NCBI RefSeq assembly: GCF_003859805.1
Contig: NZ_RQZG01000012.1
Coordinates: forward strand, 45,290 to 109,289
DNA length: 64,000 nucleotides
Source of the DNA: Arachnia propionica
GTDB lineage: Bacteria > Actinomycetota > Actinomycetes > Propionibacteriales > Propionibacteriaceae
Direction of reading: 5' to 3'
Shown here: piece after piece, positions 53,466-56,414 of the stretch
Position numbering within the stretch: position 1 is the first letter of the stretch
Layout: every line of letters begins with the position of its first letter
Notes under the pieces: model-generated
Seen by the model: only the letters and a program-made list of their open reading frames with translations
The model's database searches: none
Told to the model about the DNA's origin: nothing
Program-made: the position numbers and the translations under genes

Positions 53466-53759
53466 ATGAGCACTGGTGAGATCAAGGTCAACTACTCGTC
53501 GATGGAGGCCCTCCGGGGTGGTCTGCGGCAGCAGTCCGCGGAGATCCAGACGCAGCTGGACGATCTGGAGGCGACGGCCAACCAGCTCTGGGGCAACTGG
53601 GACGGCGACGCGAAGGAGGCGTTCGCCCAGGCCAAGGCGCGGTGGAGCGCCTCGATGGCGCAGATGCACGAGATCCTGGGCGACACGGAGGCGAAGGTGG
53701 GTGCCTCGGCGATGCAGTACGCCGACACCGACCGGGCCAACGCGCAGCGGATGCTCTGA
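53466..53759 (+). CDS. WXG100-family protein, shorter partner
   Basis: A 97-aa ESAT-6-like protein: helix 1, WDG turn in WGNWDGDAKEAF, helix 2, and a C-terminal Y-A-D-T-D stretch (MQYADTDRANAQ) that fits the YxxxD secretion motif (Tyr followed four residues later by Asp). AGGGAGAACG precedes the ATG. It is probably secreted with the preceding protein through the ESX machine encoded next door. A perfect terminator hairpin follows. Confidence 0.9.
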   Translation: MSTGEIKVNYSSMEALRGGLRQQSAEIQTQLDDLEATANQLWGNWDGDAKEAFAQAKARWSASMAQMHEILGDTEAKVGASAMQYADTDRANAQRML

Positions 53760-53770
53760 CGACAGGGATC

Positions 53771-53806
53771 AGGCGCGGCCCCACGTGGTGACGTGGGGCC
53801 GCGCCT
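53771..53806 (+). terminator. Perfect 16-bp hairpin terminator after the WXG100 pair
   Basis: Arms 53771-53786 and 53791-53806 pair at all 16 positions around a GGTG loop, 11 bases after the stop. Confidence 0.85.
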
Positions 53807-53817
53807 GCGTCGTGTCG

Positions 53818-53866
53818 TCGGACTGATCGAACCGACCCGTCGGACTGACCGGACCGACCCGTCGTT
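53818..53866. repeat. Short direct repeat CGGACTGA-CCGACCCGTCG
   Basis: Two 24-base units (about 53818-53842 and 53843-53866) differ at two bases. They lie directly before the GCCTG array. Nothing codes here. Confidence 0.55.
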
Positions 53867-53882: not shown

Positions 53883-54030
53883 GAAGTGCCTGTGTTGCTG
53901 CAGTTTCGCCTGCCTTGGGTGGGGTTTGCCTGCCTAAAATCGAATTGCCTGTCCAATAAGACAGGCAATTCGAAACAAGACAGGCACTTCTCCCTCAGGA
54001 CAGGCGAACCCGTCACAAGGCAGGCAAACC
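53883..54030. repeat. Symmetric eight-unit GCCTG/CAGGC array
   Basis: GCCTG occurs at 53888, 53908, 53928 and 53947, and CAGGC at 53962, 53981, 54001 and 54021. All four pairs share one centre (53956.5), with steps of 20, 20, 19, 15, 19, 20 and 20 bases. The flanks come in four types (AGTGCCTGT, TTCGCCTGCC, TTTGCCTGCC, ATTGCCTGTC), each with a reverse-complement counterpart on the other side. The central pair forms a perfect 14-bp hairpin (53940-53953 with 53960-53973). It lies between convergent genes and is non-coding. A protein-binding array, a cruciform or a mobile palindrome is possible. Confidence 0.8.
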
Positions 54031-54147: not shown

Positions 54148-55077
54148 TCACGACAGGTCACCTGCGGTGATCCGCAGCAGCACCCCCTGCACCACGATCT
54201 GGGTGCCGACGCTCACCCGGGTGCGTTCGCCCGGGGCCAGGCGGTGGCGTTCGCCGTTGCGGTGACGCAGTTCGGAGCCGTGGGCGGAGACGTCCTCCAC
54301 CCACACCCCGCCCTCGGCGGGGGAGAGCACCAGATGGGTGCGCGACAGCGACTCGGGCGCCTCCGGGATGGGGACACTCCTGGCATCCGGGGCGCTGACC
54401 CGCGGGGAACGGCCGACGTACAGCGTGACGTCCACCGGGACGCGTTCCCCCGTCGGCAGCACCAGGTGCGGGACGACGGGGCGGGGCAGCATCGACGACG
54501 GCGGTGCCCAGATCGACTCCGCCGGGGCGGGGGACGCACTCCGGGACGGCCCCGGAGCAGGGGGTGCCACGGGCGTCGGGGACGGCGCCGGAGTGGGGAT
54601 GGTGGCCGGGCTGGGTATCGGGACGGGACTCCACGGCGACGGTGCCGTCGCGGCCGTCCGGGTGGGTCGGGTCACCACGGCGACCCGAGGCGGCGGGGAA
54701 GCGGTCTGCGCAGCCCGGGCCCGACGACGTTCGGCTCGCTGTTCGGCCCGCTGCCAGGCGTCACGTCGCAGATCGATCGCCTCACTGCGCAGCAACCCCA
54801 ACCCCAGACCGGGGGCGCGCGTGCTGCCCTGCCGCACCCGGGCAGCACCGACGACCAGGCCACCCGGGCTGCGACCGGAGTGGGCGACCACCAGCAGCAG
54901 CACCACCATGGCCTCCAGCGCCGTCAGGGTCACGAGCACCACCGAACGGCTCAGCCACCACGTGGTCCAGGCGACGACCCCCAGCAGCATCACGTCCAGC
55001 AACGGGCCGACCCACTGCTGCACCGTCGTCGCGGGAGGGAACTCCGGCCGCTCGTCGGGAGCGACGGCACCGGTCAT
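54148..55077 (-). CDS. RDD-FHA protein of the type VII locus
   Basis: A 309-aa protein. The start at 55077 overlaps the preceding EccD-like stop (ATGA). The N-terminal part has two membrane segments (about residues 22-70) and an RDD-like tail (SPGGLVVGAARVRQ and GLGLGLLRSEAIDLRRD). A Pro/Ala-rich linker (about residues 125-200) leads to a C-terminal FHA domain (VDVTLYVGRSPRV, SLSRTHLVL, VWVEDVSAHGSEL), in which the GR, SxxH and NG-like residues for phosphothreonine binding are present (the last as SAHGS). It could bring a phospho-regulated protein to the secretion machine. EccE, which normally completes the complex, is not found, but this protein is not EccE-like. Confidence 0.78.
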   Translation of the reverse strand: MTGAVAPDERPEFPPATTVQQWVGPLLDVMLLGVVAWTTWWLSRSVVLVTLTALEAMVVLLLVVAHSGRSPGGLVVGAARVRQGSTRAPGLGLGLLRSEAIDLRRDAWQRAEQRAERRRARAAQTASPPPRVAVVTRPTRTAATAPSPWSPVPIPSPATIPTPAPSPTPVAPPAPGPSRSASPAPAESIWAPPSSMLPRPVVPHLVLPTGERVPVDVTLYVGRSPRVSAPDARSVPIPEAPESLSRTHLVLSPAEGGVWVEDVSAHGSELRHRNGERHRLAPGERTRVSVGTQIVVQGVLLRITAGDLS

Positions 55078-56414
55078 GACATCACCCGCCACATCGTCTC
55101 GAACAGGTGCCCGGCCAGGACCGCGGCGGGCAGCACCAGCTGCAGACTCGTCCGCTGGGCGAGATCCCCGATGTGGCCGAGCCACGCGGACTCACGCCCC
55201 CGGGTCATGACCACCACGCCCAGCCCCGATGCGACCGCCAACCCGACGGCGACGGCGGCCGCTGCGTGACCGCCGAGCCCCGTCAGCACCCACGACGAGG
55301 TGAGCAGGGCCATGACGACGGCCACCGCGGCCACACGGGGCAGGATCCGGGTGAGCCGGTCGCGCGAGCCCCGCGGTGTCAGCAGCAGTCCCAGGCAGGC
55401 GCACAGCAGCAGGACCAGGCCCGCCCAGCCGGCAGGGCTGCCGGGCCGCGCGAGGGTGGCGGCGGGGAACGCGGTCACCGCGGCCACCGTGGAGGCGGTC
55501 AGCAGCAGCAACTGGCTGCGGGCCTCGGCGTCCCGGAGTGAACGCCTCACCCGGGGGCCGGTGATCCTGGCCGGGGGCAGCACCTTCGGGGCCCGCACCG
55601 TCGCGCTGGAGGTGGTCACGGCGGGCAGGTGGAGCAGTTGCGTCTCGGGTGCCCGGAACGCCAGGGTGGGCACCAGGCCGATGCTCAGCGTCGCCGCGGC
55701 CAGCAGCAGCGCGGCCAGGGTGGGCAGGTGCACGTCGGTGAGACCGGCGACGGTGAAGGTCAGGGCTGAGAGCCACCACACCACGGCCGTGGCGGCCGCC
55801 AGCCTGCTGCGGTCCAGCGCCCAGACCAGCAGGGTCGCACCCAACGCGGCCCACCCCACCAGGGCCGCGACCATGAGTGCGGTGAAGCCACCGACGAAGG
55901 GCACCACCACCACGCTGGTGACCCCCAGCAGCGCCGTGACCGTCGGGAGCCCCCACGGGCTACGGCGCAGTGTGGCGGGCAGCAGCGCGACCACCAGCAC
56001 CGGCCCACACACCACCGCCGTCGCGGCCCGGAGCCACCCCGGGACCGGCCACCAGCCCAGGGCGGGACCGATCAGGAAGGTGATCTCCGACGCCGTGACC
56101 ACGCTCAGGGTGAGGGCCGTCACGATGGCGGCCGGCACCCAGTGGTGTTCCCCGGCGGATGCGGCAGAGTGTTCAGCGGGGTCGGTGTCGCCCCGGGCGG
56201 CGACGTGCAGGAGGGTGCCGGAGGCCAGGTCGTGCCCCAGCCGCATGCTCGGGGTGACGGCACCACCGTCGGCCCGGGTGACCTGGAACGGCCCCTGCGC
56301 GGGCACAGCGCCCAGCATGTGGATGACCGAGCCCACCGTCGTGCCCTCCGGGACGGCGACGTCGAAGGTCCGGGCACCGCACCGGATGGTGGTGGACGTG
56401 AGCGTCGTCGCCAT
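55074..56414 (-). CDS. EccD-like type VII secretion membrane protein (second copy)
   Basis: A 446-aa protein with an N-terminal ubiquitin-like domain (IRCGARTFDVAVPEGTTVGSVIHML) and about eleven membrane segments. It follows the same plan as the eccD at 51565-52878 but is clearly diverged, with a longer cytoplasmic loop of about 60 residues after segment 6 (LHLPAVTTSSATVRAPKVL...). The start at 56414 follows GAGGGAGG. It is divergent from eccC, separated by 122 bases. EccD occurs as two copies in the ESX-5 complex, normally from one gene, so two separate genes could encode a hetero-pair. Confidence 0.78.
   Translation of the reverse strand: MATTLTSTTIRCGARTFDVAVPEGTTVGSVIHMLGAVPAQGPFQVTRADGGAVTPSMRLGHDLASGTLLHVAARGDTDPAEHSAASAGEHHWVPAAIVTALTLSVVTASEITFLIGPALGWWPVPGWLRAATAVVCGPVLVVALLPATLRRSPWGLPTVTALLGVTSVVVVPFVGGFTALMVAALVGWAALGATLLVWALDRSRLAAATAVVWWLSALTFTVAGLTDVHLPTLAALLLAAATLSIGLVPTLAFRAPETQLLHLPAVTTSSATVRAPKVLPPARITGPRVRRSLRDAEARSQLLLLTASTVAAVTAFPAATLARPGSPAGWAGLVLLLCACLGLLLTPRGSRDRLTRILPRVAAVAVVMALLTSSWVLTGLGGHAAAAVAVGLAVASGLGVVVMTRGRESAWLGHIGDLAQRTSLQLVLPAAVLAGHLFETMWRVMS

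Follow-up and report, generated by a model that had tools for sequence, protein, structure and literature searches.

What is an array of eight short motifs, mirrored base for base about a single point, doing between two bacterial genes that converge on it? The array lies at positions 53883-54030 of a 64,000-nucleotide stretch of the Arachnia propionica genome (assembly GCF_003859805.1, contig NZ_RQZG01000012.1, positions 45,290 to 109,289), referred to here as the window, and was pointed out in a first-pass annotation. Counting this one, the genome holds at least 36 copies between genes, and the array is likely recognised by a predicted Vsr-like nuclease with an AbiEi head, which would spread and homogenise the arrays.

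The array has four GCCTG cores and four CAGGC cores (first bases in Table 1). The first and last base of every mirrored core pair sum to 107913, and the core-to-core steps are 20, 20, 19, 15 at the centre, 19, 20 and 20. The first-pass annotation had reported this mirror and its step of about 20 bp, and all of it proved exact on recomputation. In 50 first-order Markov resamples of the window the best mirror centre gathered three of eight cores, against all eight in the real window, which excludes chance; scrambled sequence of comparable regularity, a possibility raised earlier, did not appear. The cores are embedded in 15-bp sites with the consensus CAAGRCAGGCRAANC, read outward, each followed by 5 variable bp. 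Flank variants in the order 1-2-3 and 1'-2'-3' are present as first described; going by the array copies whose sequence was inspected, this order is no rule of the family.

Copies of the array are dispersed through its own genome (G000; 3.4 Mb, 77 contigs). A blastn search with the array region matched about 35 places, both strands merged. There were 34 retrieved stretches, some with two arrays, and the weak places L039, L041 and L042 had none. With the window included, 35 arrays were placed, all intergenic, in 14 convergent, 16 tandem and five divergent gaps; a further place, C5:80988, brings the genome to at least 36 copies. It is directly observed that nearly all copies keep the same spacing. 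Their arms consist of one to nine units as parsed, most commonly three or four, and units two and outward from the centre have the common 15-bp site followed by five free bases. Unit statistics and neighbour clustering for this genome comprise 33 arrays, with L037 and L040 absent; one false match, L012:4050, was removed after the unit statistics.

The centre of the array is polar and occurs in both orientations (15 plus and 18 minus among 33 copies), and most copies carry a site variant (GGCATTTCC or GGCGTTTCC) in one arm only. The unlike left and right arms of the window array are thus largely explained. Two alignments were made, A1 with 65 of 70 oriented arrays, five odd or duplicate ones being excluded by hand, and A2 with 32 of 34. 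In tandem gaps the polarity runs with transcription in six cases and against it in nine (hand count; one array unoriented).

The region folds well as DNA and RNA (z -6.4, -6.7 and -9.2 against shuffles), and the site consensus common to both arms accounts for this pairing potential. Arm covariation is absent: with polarity aligned, the two arms of a copy show no better pairing than when arms are reassigned at random among copies. This held in all 12 comparisons, made for sites and spacers at three unit positions in two genomes (shuffles reaching the observed value, 0.22 to 1.0). A hairpin or cruciform as the conserved feature is rejected on these comparisons, and the extruded cruciform proposed in the first-pass annotation is not supported, as no pairing is conserved beyond the consensus. 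The absent covariation, together with the transcription-independent polarity, points to double-stranded DNA sites. The other early proposal, a cooperative protein-binding array, fares better and gives the best account of the anatomy (15-bp sites conserved, the 5-bp spacers between them free to vary, two-turn phasing, no covariation), the binding itself being inferred. A comparison with Rfam gave weak matches only, nearly all to microRNA families and far below the gathering score.

An absence from all relatives, the other outcome envisaged at first, was not found; arrays occur in relatives with their geometry kept. Arachnia propionica OH2822_COT-296 (contigs NZ_RQYT) has dozens of copies. At E 0.01 a sequence-only model built from 65 arrays, R1, detected arrays in 18 of 39 genomes of the genus among the matches listed, G000 included, five genomes having four matches or fewer. 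At E 0.001 with stricter filters it detected them in 17 of 198 family genomes among the matches listed, 16 from the same genus and one, G163, from another. The array design, with species-specific letters, is carried by about half of the genus. The geometry is constant, and the letters are type I AAGGCCAGCAAACC and type II AAGGCAAGCG in G004 and its kin, GGCGGGCG in G025 and G013, GCAGGTGAAC in G028 and AAGGCAGGCGTCG in T. lapidicaptus. A pattern scan of contigs yielded 74 stretches; those beyond Propionibacteriaceae were one-strand matches only and were taken as chance.

When the genes adjoining 147 arrays in 18 genomes were clustered, the most widely common neighbour was a single protein, found in six species and termed here the partner protein. 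In G000 it is encoded at L016:2711-3628 and has 305 amino acids. The gene was sought in 16 of the 39 genus genomes and is present in 11, with 16 copies in total. Mirrored repeats with a step of about 20 bp lie beside all 16 copies, and on both sides of 15 (flanks judged by eye). This bracketing is directly observed and holds even where the array models find nothing; G003, G021 and G034 are arrayless to both models. At the three copies of G026 and the second copy of G028 the flanking repeats are short or weak, with about two sites per arm. The motif goes with the gene copy: in G002 the first copy has type I arrays and the second type II, and the two copies of G021 have GCCACCC and GCCAACG arrays, respectively. 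A partner homologue was not found at E 1e-10 in G001, G016, G029 and G032, which are arrayless by models R1 and R2.

Bracketing was also scored as the best local match, on either strand, between 300 bp upstream and 300 bp downstream of 21 gene copies and of 195 control genes from G004, G005 and the window. Nineteen of the 21 copies were matched or beaten by at most two controls. The top control is itself a gene with type II arrays on both sides; the runner-up carries terminal inverted repeats and looks like a transposase. Inverted repeats of other kinds surround five distant homologues (31-35% identity) found in Tsukamurella and Collinsella records of a plasmid collection. They are a GCTGCCG array stepping by 19/20 bp, an array of GGGGGA, a palindrome of 30 bp and a TGTCTCGATCTGTAAC stem, with four repeats upstream and two downstream of the Collinsella homologue (L296:912-1273, 2343-2612); the repeats of the fifth (L294) are weak. 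The Collinsella TGTCTCGATCTGTAAC stem repeats are a possible dispersed family in their own right. Two of the records, L297 and L295 (Tsukamurella tyrosinosolvens NCTC13231), are 400-kb 'plasmids' with tatB and polyprenyl synthetase, and look like chromosome pieces. Further plasmid searches brought no new records, and none of 58 pattern-matching stretches from viral contigs encodes a relative.

The partner protein is predicted to join an AbiEi-type half to a nuclease fold like that of Vsr and I-Bth0305I. Residues 1-185 have a predicted AbiEi fold with an N-terminal DNA-binding domain, and the C-terminal half a predicted Vsr/I-Bth0305I-like catalytic-domain fold. The AbiEi_4 profile matches 43 of 50 members at E 0.01. 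Of the candidate active-site residues, E193, D226 and E237 are invariant and D239 and K243 nearly so. The N-terminal likeness is to the antitoxin of the type IV AbiE toxin-antitoxin system; AbiEi proteins are described in PMC7319586 as binding inverted repeats next to the gene that encodes them. Unlike AbiEi, the partner adds a nuclease-like domain, and its repeats flank the gene on either side as well as being dispersed. The predicted C-terminal likeness is to Vsr endonuclease and to the EDxHD homing endonuclease I-Bth0305I, which PMC3943268 describes as forming a dimer on a target almost 60 bp long, a length comparable with the mirrored array. Neither enzyme has an AbiEi-type N-terminal half, and here there are many target-like arrays per genome. 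Unlike homing endonucleases, there is no sign of an intron or split target gene, neither of which was specifically searched for.

Whole arrays come and go between relatives, as is directly observed. Twenty arrays were listed in G004, and 13 of them have an orthologous stretch in G005: seven are common, one is partial (2675284) and five are absent in G005 (2972472, 3050378, 3145695, 3314396 and 3341733, the last inside a larger deletion). The junction at 3314396 is clean, a segment of about 168 bp being either there or not. At 2972472 G005 lacks about 300 bp with two arrays, and at 3050378 and 3145695 the gap is replaced by 24-44 other bases. Junctions were taken from blastn coordinates and a direct print of the sequence, MAFFT views being poor at several sites. 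At L277:4670-6082 a G004 gene is followed by a similar stretch with type II arrays at each junction, as if duplicated in tandem through the arrays.

Between G000 and OH2822 seven array pairs lie between the same neighbours (six by genes and L035-L108 by matching flanks), the L026-L079 pair with about 2 kb extra on one side in OH2822; four further pairs are in a nearby gap. Over the seven pairs, conservation is 0.73 for sites, 0.61 for spacers and 0.67 for flanks. Array and flank conservation disagree both ways, suggesting replacement or conversion of whole arrays. The arrays at L035:2503-2618 and L108:573-688 are identical in 105 of 105 site positions and 23 of 24 spacer positions, with 180-bp flanks 62% alike; judged by sequence, this near-identity would be recent conversion or transfer.

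On the nuclease reading, the AbiEi-type half would bind the 15-bp sites, and the two-turn phasing may mean that several protein molecules line up along one side of the DNA and meet at the central dyad. The nuclease half would cut or nick array DNA, and repair would copy arrays into one another and, rarely, into new gaps.

Several observations weigh against this reading. The AbiEi_4 match of the G000 protein, 20.1 bits, is under the Pfam cut-off of 25, and no match to its C-terminal half turned up in Pfam or NCBIfam, or in the PDB by sequence. The G003 partner gene has one large array, downstream only, and neither G003 nor L294 stands above controls in the flank comparison. G062 has 30 arrays and no partner homologue at E 1e-10, and G004 carries type II arrays, yet its sole gene copy is bracketed by type I; such orphan arrays fit gene loss after spread or, equally, rival movers. 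The motif tracks the protein tree only for the two closest pairs. The L031 and L035 pairs are 97-100% alike in sites with flanks 61-62% alike, and L024 shows the reverse; selection may hold arrays at some places. A target-site duplication was not seen, and presence or absence is clean at one missing array only. Finally, a copying nuclease alone does not explain the origin-proximal bias described below.

The system works like a REPtron, with a different enzyme and repeat design. PMC3733652 and PMC8266576 describe the REPtron (RAYT/TnpA_REP with REP) as likewise a single gene bracketed by dispersed intergenic palindromic repeats that vary with the gene copy. The REPtron enzyme is an HUH Y1 transposase, whereas PF01797 was found in none of the 39 genus genomes (controls match in 5 of 14); the partner here is a predicted AbiEi-Vsr-like fusion. 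Membership therefore fails on the enzyme, REP/RAYT identity is ruled out, and the system is filed as REPtron-like in logic. Unlike REPs, the repeats are mirrored arrays of 15-bp sites, untagged and without arm covariation; GTAG or CTAC was not found by eye in 53883-54030. BOX elements and other modular dispersed repeats have a variable number of internal units. The mirrored 20-bp phasing and the bracketed partner gene set the present arrays apart from BOX elements. Set beside miniature inverted-repeat transposable elements, the arrays show clean presence or absence at one site with no duplication seen there, and their outer ends vary in unit number. The first-pass annotation's view that the array is undescribed holds among the open-licence literature matches listed, where no description of such repeats was found, in the genus or with the partner family; most subscription papers and bioRxiv preprints are outside that scope.

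A wider proposal can be put forward tentatively, with rather more doubt than belief: an Actinomycetota-wide couple of gene and repeat. Proteins labelled 'AbiEi family antitoxin domain' or 'DUF559' would be array nucleases, each with its own fast-changing mirrored iteron array, cutting and so copying it from gap to gap. They would give rise to repeat families without a transposase, and the Arachnia/Tessaracoccus arrays would mark the origin-proximal half of the chromosome. A whole repeat class (CGTC) is described in part of PMC3733652 as having no dedicated transposase, and a nuclease-driven route, if true, would be one answer to the spread of such repeats. It would also supply a partner enzyme to dispersed palindromic repeats that lie outside RAYT systems, and assign a testable function to a big protein family whose present names are vague. 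Arrays with fixed geometry but freely varying letters lend themselves to deducing protein-DNA recognition from genome sequence alone. The origin-proximal bias, if functional, opens up chromosome organisation in this group, which is not known to have a nucleoid-occlusion factor.

That bias underlies a different explanation, an unlikely one, in which the arrays are host chromosome-organising sites of the Noc/SlmA kind, excluded from the terminus; the partner would be a site-binding protein autoregulated by its flanking arrays, its nuclease fold structural or silent. With dnaA located in seven genomes and origin-proximal defined as within a quarter genome of dnaA, the arrays among the matches listed are origin-proximal in 20 of 20 cases in G004, 30 of 30 in G062 and 25 of 30 in G002 (p 2e-6, 2e-9 and 3e-4; with neighbours within 10 kb pooled, 3e-5, 6e-8 and 3e-3). 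Arrays thus lie mainly or wholly in the origin-proximal half in three of the four complete or nearly complete genomes. G002 is in six contigs, one of 3.47 Mb, and its position list is without two arrays of L291; position lists rest on motif-tuned models. Noc and SlmA sites are unevenly spread, and their placement at the terminus delays division, according to passages of PMC4726725. The present sites resemble them in numbering dozens and in avoiding the terminus half in three of the four genomes tested; unlike them, they are grouped into arrays of several sites, and some of these arrays are gained or lost between relatives.

The chromosome-organising explanation is weakened by the five of 13 G004 arrays missing in G005, by the invariance of the likely nuclease residues and by two arrays beside the second partner gene copy of G002, at 2.29 Mb, which are distal and were missed by both models. 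G005 as assembled also departs from the pattern (8 of 13 arrays, p 0.58), though a large inversion sets it apart from G004: four blocks sampled between 0.4 and 1.87 Mb run the other way round, and GC skew is negative from between 560 and 720 kb, being positive only in samples at 80-560 kb. The region of about 0-2.0 Mb (L203-L214, L238-L257) is either a true inversion or very lopsided chromosome, or a misassembly. Of the four G005 arrays at 1.63-1.87 Mb, two correspond, in inverted orientation, to orthologous G004 arrays at 132 and 200 kb. The better-scoring array strand faces the origin in 21 of 30 arrays in G062 and 15 of 23 in G002 (hand count). Identity with parS was rejected: in a search with a 14-base core, exact GTTTCACGTGAAAC-type sites cluster near dnaA in G000, G002, G004, G005 and G062, and the arrays differ from them in sequence and place. 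G028 has no GTTTCACGTGAAAC parS site at one mismatch or fewer; six other array-bearing genomes tested have at least six matches each.

It is less probable still that another, unseen enzyme moves the arrays and that the AbiEi/nuclease gene is a passenger or repressor carrying two of them. The G062 arrays and the type II arrays of G004, which are without a bracketing gene copy at the threshold used, would suit this explanation. Bracketing in 15 of 16 copies with different motifs, and in distant homologues, is hardly expected of a passenger. No Y1 transposase is encoded in the 39 genomes, the transposase search having covered Y1 only, and no other neighbour gene was as widely common in the clustering, which covered part of the arrays.

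A bidirectional transcription terminator or RNA hairpin at gene ends is very improbable, even though the array folds far better than shuffles and 53 arrays lie in convergent against 18 in divergent gaps (p 4e-5; 65 tandem, 11 undecided). Those 18 arrays between divergent genes do not fit a terminator, nor do the lack of arm covariation, the polarity independent of transcription and the separate hairpin already present after the WXG100 gene beside the window array. That hairpin is probably the gene's own terminator. An operator array for the neighbouring type VII genes, suggested by position only, can be practically dismissed, as the array sits beyond two 3' ends, other copies adjoin other genes, and the two genes occur without an array in the relative G010.

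In G010 the corresponding gap is about 50 bp, with a hairpin at the equivalent position, and the final 45 bases of the WXG100 gene are identical to those in the window. Among eight Pfam-scanned proteins that adjoin other arrays none is a WXG100 protein, and one is DUF6177, of unknown function. The type VII adjacency mentioned in the first-pass annotation therefore looks incidental; most likely, the window copy came to lie between two convergent genes by chance and has no role for the type VII genes. An 'FHA' label for the convergent gene is unsupported by Pfam.

Table 1. Features in and around the mirrored array, in window coordinates; cores are given by their first base
Feature	Position	Strand	Remark
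Entire mirrored array, four sites per side of 53956.5	53883..54030	.	centre in canonical orientation
Outermost left-arm 15-bp site	53883..53897	-	core GCCTG at 53888; frame from family site consensus
Left-arm 15-bp site, third from centre	53903..53917	-	core GCCTG at 53908
Left-arm 15-bp site, second from centre	53923..53937	-	core GCCTG at 53928
Central palindrome, the two innermost sites	53942..53971	.	cores at 53947 (GCCTG) and 53962 (CAGGC)
Right-arm 15-bp site, second from centre	53976..53990	+	core CAGGC at 53981; arm-specific variant CAGGCACTTC
Right-arm 15-bp site, third from centre	53996..54010	+	core CAGGC at 54001
Outermost right-arm 15-bp site	54016..54030	+	core CAGGC at 54021
WXG100 (ESX) gene, 3' end towards array, outside the element	53466..53759	+	Pfam PF06013, E 3.5e-17
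Hairpin directly after WXG100 gene, distinct from array	53767..53812	+	inverted repeat
Convergent gene, 3' end towards array	54148..55092	-	without Pfam match

The gap between the hairpin and the array also holds, at 53816-53859, two 22-bp direct repeats (CGTCGGACTGATCGAACCGACC-like) that are 91% identical.
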